NCBI RefSeq assembly: GCF_007990505.1
Contig: NZ_AP019822.1
Span: 1,302,001-1,366,000 of the forward strand
DNA length: 64,000 nucleotides
Source: Pseudoleptotrichia goodfellowii
GTDB taxonomy: Bacteria; Fusobacteriota; Fusobacteriia; Fusobacteriales; Leptotrichiaceae
Reading direction: 5' to 3'
A model generated the notes under the pieces. It was given only the letters and a program-made list of their open reading frames with translations, made no database searches and was not told the DNA's origin. The position numbers and the translations under genes are program-made. Below are positions 500 through 8,505 of the stretch, piece after piece (the first letter of the stretch is position 1; each line of letters starts with the position of its first letter).

Positions 500-1588
500 T
501 TATCTGATATATTCCCTACCCTTATCCGAAATTTTAAATATTCCGTTATCTACATATATAAGTTTTCTGTCTTTTGCTTTTTCCGATATTTTCTCAAAAA
601 AACTCTTTTCCCAACGCAAATGATACTCCATTGTATCGATTCCGCATTCTTCTTTTTCTTCAGCAGTATCTTTGTGATTTAAAATATGGATTAACAGCAT
701 TTTTGTGGAAAACTCGATTTTCTGATTTTTTTTACGTCTGAATGTGGAAACAAGTCCGCTTTTAGGGGAAACAATCAGTACAACAATAAATATTGCTCCT
801 ATTACTACCGCAATCATTCCCGCTATGGAAACATCCCACGCACTTGCCAGGAAAAATCCGATTACACTTGATATTGCCCCTAAAACAACACTCAAAAACA
901 TCATCATTTTCAGATTATTTGTCAATAAATAAGCTGTTATAGGCGGTCCGATCATAAATGCGACTACCAATATCGAACCTACCGCTTCAAAAGAAGCTAC
1001 TGAAGTCATAGACACAAGCGACATCAGCATATAATGGATTAATATTGGTTTCATTCCCAAAGTTGCTGCAAGAACTCTGTCAAAAGTGGATATTTTCAAC
1101 TCTTTAAAAAATATCACGACAAACAGGAAATTTATAAGAAATATTCCGAATGTAGTTACTAATCCTTTTACAACAGTAACTCCAAATATTTTTGCAGTGT
1201 TAAAAGGAGCAAAAGCCAATTCTCCCAACAATACCGAATCAACGTCCAGATGAACATTTGAAGCGTATTTGGATATTAATATTACGGCTATACTGAATAA
1301 CAAGGGAAAAACAACTCCTATTGCCGAATCCTCTTTTACAAGCCTTGTAGAATTTAAAAGTTCTACAAGATAAACTGTCAAAACTCCTACTATTCCTGCT
1401 CCTACGATAAGAAAAGGCGAACTCAAATCATGAACCATAAAGAAAGCTATTACAATTCCGAGCAAAATAGTGTGAGTTATAGCATCAGATACCATTGCCA
1501 TGCTTTTCAGTACGAGAAACGTTCCTAAAATAGAACACGATCCCGCAACACAAATAGCTATAAGTTGTATTGTCAATCCTGCACTCAT
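500..1588 (-). CDS. Metal (Mn/Zn/Fe) ABC transporter permease with C-terminal winged-helix extension
   Basis: This is an ABC-3 family membrane subunit that moves manganese, zinc or iron released by the periplasmic binding lipoprotein. Residues 1 to about 285 form the usual hydrophobic multi-helix permease. The remaining 75 or so residues are soluble and charged. They start at about LLIHILNHKD, end in a WEKSFFEK...IYVDNGIFKISDKG segment, and resemble the winged-helix part of DtxR-type regulators. Family members without this tail are usually 270-300 residues, against 362 here. The start ATG overlaps the upstream permease stop (ATGA), indicating coupled translation. This is the last gene of the operon. 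The permease call is firm; the helix-turn-helix reading of the tail is inference. Confidence 0.9.
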   Translation of the reverse strand: MSAGLTIQLIAICVAGSCSILGTFLVLKSMAMVSDAITHTILLGIVIAFFMVHDLSSPFLIVGAGIVGVLTVYLVELLNSTRLVKEDSAIGVVFPLLFSIAVILISKYASNVHLDVDSVLLGELAFAPFNTAKIFGVTVVKGLVTTFGIFLINFLFVVIFFKELKISTFDRVLAATLGMKPILIHYMLMSLVSMTSVASFEAVGSILVVAFMIGPPITAYLLTNNLKMMMFLSVVLGAISSVIGFFLASAWDVSIAGMIAVVIGAIFIVVLIVSPKSGLVSTFRRKKNQKIEFSTKMLLIHILNHKDTAEEKEECGIDTMEYHLRWEKSFFEKISEKAKDRKLIYVDNGIFKISDKGREYIR

Positions 1589-2532
1589 GATTTTATACCC
1601 CCTTTCAAGCTGCTCAATTCGGATTTTTTATTTTTAAGTTTTTCACTAAGCATTTTTCTTTTTTTTCTGTTCATTGAAAATTTGAATATTATTCCTCTTT
1701 TCGGAGAAAAAAGTATACTGAAAATCACTATCAGACTTATTATCAAAACTATAACAGGTCCTGTAGGAAGATTGCTTTCGGTAATACTCACAAGTGTTCC
1801 TGTCAATCCGGCAAATCCTCCGAATATCCCCGATAAAATAACCATTACCGATAGCTTGTCGGTCCACTGTCTTGCCGCTACTGCCGGAGAAATAATCATC
1901 GCACTTATCAGTATTACTCCTGCTGCCTGAATCCCTATTATAACTGTAACTACAATCAGAACAGAAATAGATATACCTATTTTTTTGCTTGGAAATCCTA
2001 ATGTTCTGGCAAATTCTGCATCAAAAGAAACAATTTTAAATTCCTTCCAAAATAGAATTATTATAGCCAACAGCAATAATCCCGTATAAAACATAAGTTT
2101 TACATCACGTTCCACAAAAGTGGATGCCTGTCCGAAAATAAATCTGTTCAGTCCCGATTTGTTTGCTCCGGGTAATTTATTCAAATAAGAAAGCAATACA
2201 AGACCCAACCCGAAAAATACCGACAATATAAATGCCAATGCACTGTCAAATTTTATTTTGGTATAGTTCTGTATAAGATAAATCAATCCTATACAGACTA
2301 TTCCTATAAACAAAGCTCCCAACAAAAGAATTTCGGTATTTTTTATATGAGTTATCATAAAAGCAAGACATACTCCGGGCAACGAAGCATGTGAAACAGC
2401 ATCTCCGAGCAAACTCTGTTTTCTTAAAATCGCAAAGCATCCAAGCACTCCCGATACTATTCCCAAGAGCATACATCCCATTGCAATAGTTCTGAAAGTA
2501 TAATCACTTACAAGAAGGCTTATTATATTCAT
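1585..2532 (-). CDS. Metal (Mn/Zn/Fe) ABC transporter permease
   Basis: This is the first of two ABC-3 family permeases (315 aa) of a TroCD/MntCD/SitCD-like importer, with about eight or nine hydrophobic segments. The N terminus includes the family-typical SLLGDAVSHASLPG loop, and GIQAAGVILISAMIISP lies near residue 200. The C-terminal 40 residues are basic (FSMNRKKRKML) and should be cytoplasmic. A GGAGG ribosome site lies just upstream of the ATG and the ATPase stop is only 4 bases away. Such permeases work as heterodimers, so this protein should pair with the tailed permease that follows. Metal specificity cannot be read from the sequence. Confidence 0.9.
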   Translation of the reverse strand: MNIISLLVSDYTFRTIAMGCMLLGIVSGVLGCFAILRKQSLLGDAVSHASLPGVCLAFMITHIKNTEILLLGALFIGIVCIGLIYLIQNYTKIKFDSALAFILSVFFGLGLVLLSYLNKLPGANKSGLNRFIFGQASTFVERDVKLMFYTGLLLLAIIILFWKEFKIVSFDAEFARTLGFPSKKIGISISVLIVVTVIIGIQAAGVILISAMIISPAVAARQWTDKLSVMVILSGIFGGFAGLTGTLVSITESNLPTGPVIVLIISLIVIFSILFSPKRGIIFKFSMNRKKRKMLSEKLKNKKSELSSLKGGIKS

Positions 2533-2536
2533 AATA

Positions 2537-3289
2537 TTACGCCTCCTTTTCAGATAAAAACTTGCTTTTATAAGTTTTTTCTATATTTTCCTGAGTAAAC
2601 ACTTCATTTACAGGTCCTGAAGCCACAACAGAAACATTAATAAAAGTAACATAGTCAAAGTAATTTTTCACAGTTTGAAGATCATGATGAACTACTATTA
2701 CAGTTTTACCGTCATCTCTTAACTTTTTCAGTATATTTACTATGGATTTTTCAGTTTTACTGTCGACTCCCTGAAAAGGCTCGTCCATAAAATATATTTC
2801 AGCATCCTGAACCAAAGCTCTTGCCAAAAATACTCTCTGTTGCTGTCCTCCTGACAACTGGCTTATCTGTCTGCTTTTAAACTCTTCCATTTCTACTTGA
2901 CGAATAGCTTCTTCAGTTTTCTCTTTGTCTATTTTTCTTATTCTTTTTAACCATCCTACTTTTCCGTATCTTCCCATTTCCACTACATCAAAAACAGTAG
3001 TCGGAAAATCCCAGTCGACACTTCCTCTTTGAGGCACATATGCTATTTTACTTCTTACTTTATTATATTTTTCTCCGTAAAAATGCACTTCTCCCGTAGC
3101 CGGCTTCAACAGATTCAGCATTGCTTTTATCAATGTAGATTTTCCCGCTCCGTTAGGACCTACAACTGCCATTAATACACCTTTTTTTACTTCCAATTCA
3201 ATATCCCATAAAACGGGTTTGTCCTCATAGGCAACTGTCAAATCCTCCACTTTAATTATAATTTCTTTTGTAATATCTTTTTCAGCCAT
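2537..3289 (-). CDS. Metal ABC transporter ATP-binding protein
   Basis: This is the cytoplasmic ATPase of the metal importer (250 aa, normal for TroB/MntB/ZnuC). Walker A is GPNGAGKST at residues 44-52, the signature is LSGGQQQR near 145, Walker B is YFMDEP near 165, and the switch histidine lies in VVHHD near 200. The family-typical VPQRGSVDWDFP segment near residue 86 is that of manganese/zinc/iron importers. The gene sits between the binding lipoprotein (39 bases upstream) and the permease (4 bases downstream) and is surely co-transcribed with them. Confidence 0.94.
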   Translation of the reverse strand: MAEKDITKEIIIKVEDLTVAYEDKPVLWDIELEVKKGVLMAVVGPNGAGKSTLIKAMLNLLKPATGEVHFYGEKYNKVRSKIAYVPQRGSVDWDFPTTVFDVVEMGRYGKVGWLKRIRKIDKEKTEEAIRQVEMEEFKSRQISQLSGGQQQRVFLARALVQDAEIYFMDEPFQGVDSKTEKSIVNILKKLRDDGKTVIVVHHDLQTVKNYFDYVTFINVSVVASGPVNEVFTQENIEKTYKSKFLSEKEA

Positions 3290-3328: not shown

Positions 3329-4299
3329 TTATTTTAAAGCATTTGAAATAGTATCAGCATTAGCTTTTACTGTTTTAATATAAGTTTCTGTATTATGAGC
3401 TTCATCTCCCAATGAATCCGAATATAATTCTCCACCTATTTTTACTTCTTTTCCTTTAGCTTTTACAGCTTCCTGCAATGCTTCTATACTTTTTTTAGGA
3501 ACTGAAGATTCAATAAATATTGATTTTATATCATTTTCTACTATAAAGTTCGCCAAATCACTTATATTTTTACTTCCTGTTTCAGAGTCTGTAGAAACTC
3601 CCTGTATAGCTTTTACCTGTAATCCGAACTGTTTTGCAAAATATCCGAAAGCATCGTGAGCAGTTACAAGAACTCTGCTTTTTTCAGGTATTTCATTTAT
3701 TTTTGCTTTTACATAATTTGTCAATTCTGTTAAATCCGCTTTATATTTATCAAGATTTCCTTTATAATAGCTACTGTTTGAAGGATCCATTTTACTTAAT
3801 TCGGCTTCAACAGCATCAGCTTCTTTAGCCCACAATTCTGTATCGAACCATACGTGAGGATCAGGCGTATTTCCTTCTACATAGGCTATTTTACTTTTAT
3901 CCAAAGCATCTCCTACGTTCAATACTACTTTCCCTTGAGAAGTCAGTTTTTCAAAAATTTCAACCATTTTTCCTTCCAAGTGCAATCCTCCGTAAACTAC
4001 CAAATCTGCATTGGACAATTTATCAATATCTCCTGCACTTGCAGTATATAAGTGGGGGTCTACTCCTTCTCCCATTAATCCTGTAACTTCGACTTTATCT
4101 CCGCCTATGGTTTTTATAAGGTCTACGAGCATTGTTGTTGTCGTCGTAACTTTTATTTTTTTACCTGTTTCAGTTTTAGTCATTGCATCTTTTTTTCTCC
4201 GTCGCCTTCTTTTTTACCGCAGGCAAGTAATCCTATCATCATTATCCCGAACATAATTAAAAATTTAAAACTTTTTTTCAAATTAACTTTCTTAGTCAT
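3329..4299 (-). CDS. Metal-binding lipoprotein of the ABC importer (TroA-like), split by a -1 frame change
   Basis: This is a cluster A-I substrate-binding protein that captures Mn, Zn or Fe for the adjacent importer. The mature part (from 4183) has the expected histidine ligand regions DPHLY, PDPHVWFD and TAHDAFGYF, and a C-terminal ELYSDSLGD aspartate region. It has no signal peptide of its own. A good one lies upstream in another frame: ATG at 4299 after GGAGGAG, then a basic hydrophobic leader with lipobox LLAC (Cys27). That frame stops at 4180-4182 after reading GAA AAA AAG ATG CAA TGA. One extra A in the A7 run (4190-4196), or a -1 slip on A AAA AAG, joins the two parts into a normal lipoprotein. 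Without it, the second part could start at the ATG overlapping that stop (ATGA). The repressor stop overlaps the leader start. Confidence 0.85.
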
Positions 4300-4972
4300 C
4301 ATCTGTCTCCTCCGTATTTTGATTTTTTTTGTAAACTTCTATCATTCCGGCTGCATTATAAGCCACTGCTTTTATATTTTTTTCTTTACTGCTCAAGTAT
4401 ATAGGACCGTCAAAAGGATCTTTTCTCTCTATTTTATATATCTCTTTGATACTTATATTAAGCTCTCTCAGATAATCGTACAGTTCAATATTATCTTCCA
4501 CTCTTAATATAATTATCTCGTCATCTTCTTCAGCTTCGGACAATTTAATAATATTTTCTTCATCAAACTTTTTAATACCGTAAAATATAGGACTTCCGTG
4601 CGGACATTCTTTAGGATAAAATAAAAATTTTTCAAGTTTTTTTAACAGTTTATCACTCGTTACATGTTCCAGAGCCTCAGCTTCCGGATGTACTTCATCT
4701 TTTCCGTATCCTAATTTCTCATATAGAAATACTTCCCACACTCTGTGCTTCCTTATTACATTTAAAGCAAAATCATTTCCTTTTTCAGTTAATGTAACAC
4801 TCTTTCCGTTTACTTTAAGATAATCGTCATTTACAAGTTTTTTTATCATTTCACTGACTGAAGCGGGAGATATATTCAGATATTCGGCTAATTTTTTGTT
4901 TGAATACTGCTTATTCTTTTTCAATGTATATATCCCTTTCAAATAATCTTCTATACTCTTACTCATACTCAC
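4292..4972 (-). CDS. DtxR/MntR-family metal-dependent transcriptional regulator
   Basis: This is a metalloregulator expected to repress its own operon when Mn or Fe is plentiful. Residues 1-65 are the winged helix (KKLAEYLNISPASVSEMIKKL is the recognition region). Residues 66-140 form the metal-binding and dimer domain, with the family motif HPEAEALEHVTSDKL and ECPHG. Residues 150-215 look like the C-terminal FeoA/SH3-like domain found in DtxR, IdeR and TroR-type proteins. At 226 aa it is the long type rather than short MntR. It is the first gene of the operon, its stop overlaps the lipoprotein start, and a DtxR-type palindrome lies in its promoter. Which metal it senses is not decidable here. 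Confidence 0.92.
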   Translation of the reverse strand: MSMSKSIEDYLKGIYTLKKNKQYSNKKLAEYLNISPASVSEMIKKLVNDDYLKVNGKSVTLTEKGNDFALNVIRKHRVWEVFLYEKLGYGKDEVHPEAEALEHVTSDKLLKKLEKFLFYPKECPHGSPIFYGIKKFDEENIIKLSEAEEDDEIIILRVEDNIELYDYLRELNISIKEIYKIERKDPFDGPIYLSSKEKNIKAVAYNAAGMIEVYKKNQNTEETDDD

Positions 4973-6324: not shown

Positions 6325-8505
6325 CTACTTGTTTACATTATATTTCAATAATCTCAAAGAATTTCCCACTACTAAAATCGTTATCGAGTTATGCAATATG
6401 GAACTGTATATAGCCGGAAGTATTCCCGTTGCACCGAGTACAAGAGCAAAGCTGTTTACTCCTATCGCCATTGCAAAGTTTTCTTTTATAACTTTCATCG
6501 TATTTTTAGCCAGTCCTACTACTCCCGGAATCAACAAAGGATCATCAGAAGTAATAGTAATATCTGCAGCTTCCATTGCTATATCGGTTTTTGTACTTCC
6601 CAAAGCTATTCCGACATTGGCATAGGAAAGAGCCGGTGCATCATTAATTCCGTCCCCTATCATAATTACTTTGGAGCCTATCGACTGAAATTTAAGAATG
6701 TCTTTTGCTTTATCTTCAGGCAAAAGTTCAGATTCATATCTGTCCATGGACATTTTCGAGGCTATTGTTTCAGCCTGTTGTCTCAAATCTCCTGTCAGCA
6801 GAACTATATCGTCTATTCCCTGATTTCTCAATCTGTTCATTGCTTTTTTTATATTTTCTCTCGGAGGATCGGAAACACCTATTATCCCGATCAGATTTTT
6901 ATTTCTCGCTACATAAATTATAATCTCTCCACGATTAAGCATTCTTTTTGCAGCATCAACAGAATCCAGAAGCTCGACATCACTTTCTTCCATGTATCTT
7001 CTGCTTCCTACACGAATAACATCTTTTCCTACTGTTGTTTCCATTCCTCTTGAAACTTTAATGACCGTTTCTTTGTGTTTCGGAATATTAAGTCCTCTTT
7101 CTTTCATCTCGTTCAAAATAGCTACTGCCAGAGGATGAGACGATGTTTCTTCTGCAGCTGCAGCAAGGGAAAGCATTCTTTCCTCTTTTATATTTTTCCC
7201 GAATATCTGCAATGTCTGAACTTTAGGTTTTCCTTCTGTAATTGTTCCCGTTTTGTCAAAAATTACCGTATCGGATTTTGATAATTCTTCTATATAGTTA
7301 CTTCCCTTTACAAGTATACCGTTTTTTGCAGCGGTATTAATTGATGCCGAAAAAGCTGTAGCCGTAGACAGTCTTATTCCGCATGAATAATCAATTACCA
7401 ACATGCTCAATGCTTTCTGCATATTTCTTGTTGAAGCGTAAACTATTGCTGCAAGCAGAAAATTCAGCGGTATAAGTTGAGCCGAAAAAGTATCTGCATA
7501 TGACTGAATGTCAGCTTTATTAAAAGAGGCATCTTCCACTAATTTTATAATTCTCGATACCGTCCTGTCATCTCCGACTTTTTGAGCTTCTACAGTAATA
7601 TTGCCACTTTTTATAAGAGTTCCTGCAAATACTTCTTCTCCTGTTTTTTTTGAAACGGGCATATATTCTCCTGTTATCGAAGACTGGTCAATTAAAGCAT
7701 TTCCTTTTATGATTTTCCCATCGACACTTATTTTTTCTCCTGTCTGAACGACTATAGAATCTCCTTTACTGATCTCTTCTATAGGAACTTTTTTTACAGT
7801 GCCGTCTTCATTCTGCTTCCATACATAGCTTTCTCCCACACTGAGCATATCTTTAATTACTCCCCGTGTTTTTTTCATAGTATAAACAGTAAGAAGTTCT
7901 GCAAATCTTTCCAGTATCATTATAGTCAGTGCCGTTTTTTCATTTCCGAGTATAATGCTGCTGACAATAGCAGTCGAACTTAAAGTATCGGCATTCGGTC
8001 TTTTATTTTTCACAATGGAATTTATTCCGTTTTTCAAAACCGGCAAAGCGAGAGAAATAGTTGATAAAGTCTTATAATTAAACAAACGACGCATCCCTGT
8101 CAGTTCCCCTTTAGGTCCGGGCATTAAAAGTAAAACTGCCGATGCGATAATTTTTCTCATAATTTCTTTAGGCGATTCTTCCTGCAGTTTTCTTTCAATA
8201 ACATATTTATCAGGTTTCATTTTTTTCTCATTTTTATGTATTTCCACTAAATAGCCGTTTAATATATTTTGTAATAAAGAAAGCAGATTTTCTTCACTTA
8301 AATCATCATTTTTAAATTTCACGACTATAGTTCCTGTTATGTCGGATATAACAGCTTCTTTGACAGATTTCAATACTTTTATCTGATCTTCAATTTCATT
8401 TTTTAAACTTCCGAGATATTTCAGTGCATTTGATTTAATTCTTATTCTTCCCGGAATTTTATGTATAACTTCACAGTCAAGTAAATAATTATTATTTGAC
8501 ATCAT
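6325..8505 (-). CDS. P1B-type heavy-metal-translocating ATPase
   Basis: This is a membrane pump that exports or delivers a transition metal at the cost of ATP (726 aa). Order of parts: a CxxC-less HMA_2-like domain (residues 8-90, with KIPGRIRIKS), membrane helices, an actuator loop with SSITGEYMPV, the membrane metal-site helix, the phosphorylation site DKTGT (Asp417), the HP motif SSHPLAVAI typical of P1B pumps, and the hinge GDGINDAPAL. The metal-site motif reads SCG (374-376) where most P1B pumps have CPC, CPH or SPC, so the cargo is not predictable. The gene overlaps its upstream neighbour by 14 bases and shares a locus with three other HMA-like proteins. Confidence 0.93.
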   Translation of the reverse strand: MMSNNNYLLDCEVIHKIPGRIRIKSNALKYLGSLKNEIEDQIKVLKSVKEAVISDITGTIVVKFKNDDLSEENLLSLLQNILNGYLVEIHKNEKKMKPDKYVIERKLQEESPKEIMRKIIASAVLLLMPGPKGELTGMRRLFNYKTLSTISLALPVLKNGINSIVKNKRPNADTLSSTAIVSSIILGNEKTALTIMILERFAELLTVYTMKKTRGVIKDMLSVGESYVWKQNEDGTVKKVPIEEISKGDSIVVQTGEKISVDGKIIKGNALIDQSSITGEYMPVSKKTGEEVFAGTLIKSGNITVEAQKVGDDRTVSRIIKLVEDASFNKADIQSYADTFSAQLIPLNFLLAAIVYASTRNMQKALSMLVIDYSCGIRLSTATAFSASINTAAKNGILVKGSNYIEELSKSDTVIFDKTGTITEGKPKVQTLQIFGKNIKEERMLSLAAAAEETSSHPLAVAILNEMKERGLNIPKHKETVIKVSRGMETTVGKDVIRVGSRRYMEESDVELLDSVDAAKRMLNRGEIIIYVARNKNLIGIIGVSDPPRENIKKAMNRLRNQGIDDIVLLTGDLRQQAETIASKMSMDRYESELLPEDKAKDILKFQSIGSKVIMIGDGINDAPALSYANVGIALGSTKTDIAMEAADITITSDDPLLIPGVVGLAKNTMKVIKENFAMAIGVNSFALVLGATGILPAIYSSILHNSITILVVGNSLRLLKYNVNK

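Follow-up and report, generated by a model that had tools for sequence, protein, structure and literature searches.

In L. goodfellowii (Pseudoleptotrichia goodfellowii), the gene for a metal-binding lipoprotein is split between two reading frames at the heptamer A_AAA_AAG. Does this split mark a dedicated recoding signal, or is it the trace of a single-base change in an otherwise ordinary gene? An earlier note on the window (the whole stretch of 64,000 nucleotides that was analysed) had offered programmed -1 frameshifting, slippage of RNA polymerase, phase variation between seven and eight A's, and sequencing error. A literature search found no paper joining "goodfellowii" with "frameshift". 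The gene and its neighbours are arranged as follows.

500 to 1588, minus strand: second ABC-3 permease, intact
1585 to 2532, minus strand: ABC-3 permease, intact
2537 to 3289, minus strand: intact ABC transporter ATPase belonging to the metal-uptake operon
3329 to 4183, minus strand: mature metal-binding protein in the -1 frame, ZnuA family (PF01297), TroA its closest solved relative
4180 to 4302, minus strand: leader ORF with signal peptide, lipobox LLAC and start of the linker, by direct reading
4189 to 4195, minus strand: A_AAA_AAG in the leader frame, judged a by-product from the chance counts given below
4190 to 4196, minus strand: seven consecutive A's at which the frame changes, presumably by a one-base change or miscall, the relatives being in frame
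4292 to 4972, minus strand: metal-dependent, MntR/DtxR-like regulator carrying a FeoA domain, its end overlapping the leader start

Direct reading of the leader ORF (4302-4180, minus strand, 40 codons, translation MMTKKVNLKKSFKFLIMFGIMMIGLLACGKKEGDGEKKMQ) bears out the lipoprotein signal peptide and the LLAC lipobox described in the earlier note and shows the start of a linker, with closure at TGA 4182-4180. The ORF begins with tandem ATGs, so that the start proposed at 4299 is an in-frame ATG but only the second of a pair whose first member lies at 4302. The final codons are GAA (4197-4195), AAA (4194-4192), AAG (4191-4189), ATG, CAA and TGA (4182-4180). The mature binding-protein ORF (4183-3329, minus strand, 284 codons) occupies the -1 frame relative to the leader, and its assignment as TroA-like holds: it matches PF01297 over positions 1-263 of 263 with 263.9 bits, and its nearest PDB match is TroA (1toa, E 6.1e-76).

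The join likewise falls exactly where it had been placed. The A run spans seven bases (4196-4190) and is followed by G4189, and A_AAA_AAG at 4195-4189 lies in the zero frame of the leader with the -1 ORF downstream; reading of the codons confirms that a -1 slip at the heptamer would give Lys-Lys-Asp-Ala-Met-Thr and lead into ORF 4183-3329. When a signal-peptide start in the -1 frame was sought upstream of the mature ORF, only 10 open codons and no signal peptide were found, which rules out an alternative start with a signal peptide in the frame of the mature ORF.

Apart from the split, the locus resembles known TroA/ZnuA/MntC systems. The mature ORF matches these lipoproteins end to end, and the operon set of regulator, binding protein, ATPase and two ABC-3 permeases is intact but for the binding protein, whose leader and mature part lie in separate frames, unlike those of the known lipoproteins. 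The end of the MntR-like regulator overlaps the start of the lipoprotein gene (4292-4302), suggesting translational coupling. PF01297 has three further matches elsewhere in the genome. Near the operon, a long ORF at 6325-8505 resembles a P-type metal ATPase, as judged by eye.

A programmed frameshift site would be expected to be conserved among homologues. A search of 60 related genomes yielded 24 further orthologues with identity of at least 41% (loci L006-L029), and in all 24 the leader runs into the mature part without a change of frame at the join; none is split there, and no A run is conserved at the site of the frame break. All but one are open throughout. The exception, the closed genome G029 of the same family (L028), is broken further inside the gene (L028, about 1930-2000) at a run of five A's that has six A's in 16 loci (L005-L020, with the window's own genome included). 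The two congeners, G001 and G002, have no A run at the aligned site, where the linker is variable, and the additional linker length in the window relative to these congeners is not a multiple of three. Same-species copies were also sought: viral contigs gave 0 matches, and the genus gave only G001 and G002 besides the window's own genome.

One genome is thus broken at the join while its homologues are in frame, and by the criteria set out in PMC3711429 this pattern places the gene among singleton frameshifts (the indel or sequencing-error class) rather than conserved programmed sites. Singleton frameshifted genes, a hypothetical pseudogene or error class in which a single genome is broken and relatives confirm the break, provide the best fit among the systems compared, and no difference from the class as PMC3711429 describes it was noted. 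That source expects singleton, homology-validated frameshifts to be mostly sequencing errors.

A close functional parallel is dnaX-type -1 programmed ribosomal frameshifting, which relies on this heptamer in an identical reading phase. In dnaX a Shine-Dalgarno-like element lies about 10 nt upstream of the heptamer. No such stimulator was found here at dnaX-like spacing; the sequence GGAG (4200-4197) stands just 1 nt upstream of A_AAA_AAG. A 60-nt stretch beginning with the heptamer's last base has a predicted folding energy of only -0.4 kcal/mol (z 1.12), and no structure is apparent over 91 nt (z 0.09). The site thus differs from dnaX: it lacks a downstream stem-loop, a suitably spaced Shine-Dalgarno-like element, conservation and a second product with any evident use. 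Of 43 tRNA matches, 41 were read for their anticodons (the other two lie near genome positions 893903 and 1713415), and the only lysine tRNA among them was tRNA-Lys(UUU), which would make AAG shift-prone as in E. coli. In E. coli, according to PMC4066793, few motifs shift more efficiently than A_AAA_AAG once stimulators are in place, but heptamer motifs lacking them shift at no more than about 10 times a background of 0.055%.

Transcriptional slippage has its own precedents, in Citrobacter rodentium tssM1 (11 A's) and Thermus thermophilus dnaX (9 A's). The present gene resembles both, as they are described in the published accounts, in that a stop follows soon after a poly-A run and the remaining protein lies in another frame; it differs in having only seven A's and no conserved run in relatives. 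Bacterial cases in the published work drawn on involve runs of 9-11, one paper giving A runs longer than 7, and seven A's fall below the threshold of about 8-9 or more used for poly-A slippage, which makes the earlier suggestion of RNA polymerase slippage unlikely. PMC1088944, PMC5009743 and PMC4256274 were also consulted.

How much weight the heptamer itself can carry depends on its frequency in this genome. Among 670 non-overlapping ORFs in a sampled 864 kb, in-frame A_AAA_AAG was observed 144 times, against 117.6 +/- 9.0 expected from synonymous shuffles, arguing that the motif is not avoided in genes. When one A was removed in silico from each of 1015 A7-A9 runs in ORFs, 210 of the losses left A_AAA_AAG and 487 left A_AAA_AAN, and the coincidence of a break with the heptamer is, by these counts, not striking. 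Runs of this length are ordinary here: 618 sampled ORFs contain 749 A7, 177 A8 and 13 A9 runs. It was also observed that A_AAA_AAA is depleted in genes (479 versus 702 +/- 18.8 expected) and A_AAA_AAG slightly enriched, as if AAG were used for interrupting long A runs.

The mature part evolves under constraint. Relative to congener G002, dN is 0.073 and dS 0.821 (dN/dS about 0.09), and the window's lineage carries 9 unique changes versus 12 with G018 as outgroup, and 7 versus 12 with G009. No relaxed selection was seen in the mature part, with no excess of changes on the window lineage, and this lack of decay argues that the frame break is either recent or unreal.

The quality of the assembly bears directly on that choice. 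The JCM16774 assembly (AP019822, 2,290,729 bases) was built with Canu and nanopolish from MinION reads, after which Pilon was used to polish it with MiSeq reads; the MiSeq reads are deposited as DRA007809, and the same paper describes JCM16774 as the type strain, in one clade with DSM 19756, and lists drafts of DSM 19756 and F0264 (PMC6914741). These two L. goodfellowii drafts carry the accessions GCA_000516535.1 and GCA_000176335.1, respectively. Long-read assemblies are reported to retain mainly errors in homopolymer length (PMC8812927). The metal-binding locus is single-copy in the genome, so short-read polishing should have succeeded there. JCM16774 and DSM 19756 are, we take it, the same type strain.

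To place the break in a genome-wide setting, 0.864 of 2.29 Mb of this genome was scanned against 1.6 of 2.47 Mb of the L. buccalis genome (G018). All 11 queries flagged in the first scan came from the rRNA region of the window's genome. The finer scan, with that region dropped, left 17 ends that were not open. Five of these had z of at least 3, of which four were in-frame length differences and the fifth was the window gene. Among the remaining 12, whose z was below 3, all four that were read were over-long L. buccalis starts, one was the window's edge and seven were others. A pervasively faulty assembly was rejected on this basis. The window gene is the sole frame break found among 220 sampled orthologues, a count that reflects mainly genes with a well-conserved counterpart and that takes in only hits outside the rRNA region with at least 50% identity and at least half of the query covered, each place being entered once. 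Within the aligned parts of these orthologues lie 303 A or T runs of seven bases or more. When the comparison was turned round, a frame break appeared in 2 of 223 L. buccalis genes, a figure that excludes an rRNA-region hit, an antisense hit, an indistinct case with larger gaps (175876-176569 of G018) and the region at 1090898-1091158 of G018. Two L. buccalis genes, near 1209395 and 1032010, change frame relative to their L. goodfellowii counterparts. The clean sample and the single-copy locus together argue against a gross error, but one homopolymer error left over in an assembly based on nanopore reads is quite possible.

Taken together, these results make it very probable that a gene of the ordinary kind has changed by one base within a poly-A run, whether through a real indel of very recent date or through an error left in the consensus. 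Recoding at the join, whether by ribosomes on A_AAA_AAG or by RNA polymerase slippage, would yield the full-length lipoprotein, and it draws support from the correctly framed heptamer, the stop directly downstream, the single lysine tRNA seen and the strength of the motif when stimulated in E. coli. The absence of the split from all 24 orthologues, the lack of a conserved A run at the site, the lack of downstream structure, the position of GGAG, the weak shifting of unstimulated heptamers, the free use of A_AAA_AAG in genes and the greater length of known slippage runs all count against it; a functional role of this kind is very unlikely, the programmed frameshifting once proposed is not supported, and we infer that no dedicated recoding operates at the join. 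Phase variation, in which changes in A-run length would toggle the lipoprotein on and off within populations, has in its favour a homopolymer break near the start of a gene for a surface lipoprotein. Seven-A runs are commonplace here, however, relatives conserve no run at the site, and no positive evidence for the A7/A8 switch emerged, leaving only a slim chance that it applies. More improbable still is a stable, real split in L. goodfellowii in which low-level slippage on A_AAA_AAG would supply a small, regulated amount of exported protein beside a leaderless cytoplasmic form from the ATGA overlap.

The two forms of the single-base change are about equally likely. A recent real indel in JCM16774 or its culture, inactivating the lipoprotein gene, has a chance approaching even. 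It is consistent with an assembly in which this is the one break among 220 sampled orthologues, with the single-copy state of the locus, with the loss of frame in the same gene at a different A run in G029, and with a similar rate of real frame breaks in the L. buccalis sample; the three other PF01297 matches could compensate for the loss. The undecayed mature part and the intact remainder of the operon speak against it. A residual consensus error, the true gene being in frame and ordinary, is almost as likely: the MinION basis of the assembly, the typical homopolymer errors of such reads, the expectation for singleton frameshifts and the lack of decay all favour it, against which stand the MiSeq/Pilon polishing at a unique locus and the 303 other long A or T runs that passed without a break.

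On the most likely reading, an ordinary TroA/MntC-type lipoprotein gene of a metal-uptake operon would have acquired a one-base change of poly-A length in its hypervariable linker, by a very recent indel in the sequenced culture or by an error retained in the nanopore-based consensus. The A_AAA_AAG at the join would then be a frequent remnant of the loss of one base from an A run in an AT-rich genome. A real indel would leave the exported lipoprotein mostly unmade, save for what low background slippage provides, and the ATGA overlap could then serve as the start of a leaderless form in the cytoplasm. In such a genome the motif alone weighs little, since about one in five one-A losses yields A_AAA_AAG, and poly-A heptamers at frame breaks are easily mistaken for recoding signals. 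For L. goodfellowii, the binding-protein gene of this metal-uptake operon has either been wrongly recorded as broken, or been newly lost, in one reference genome.
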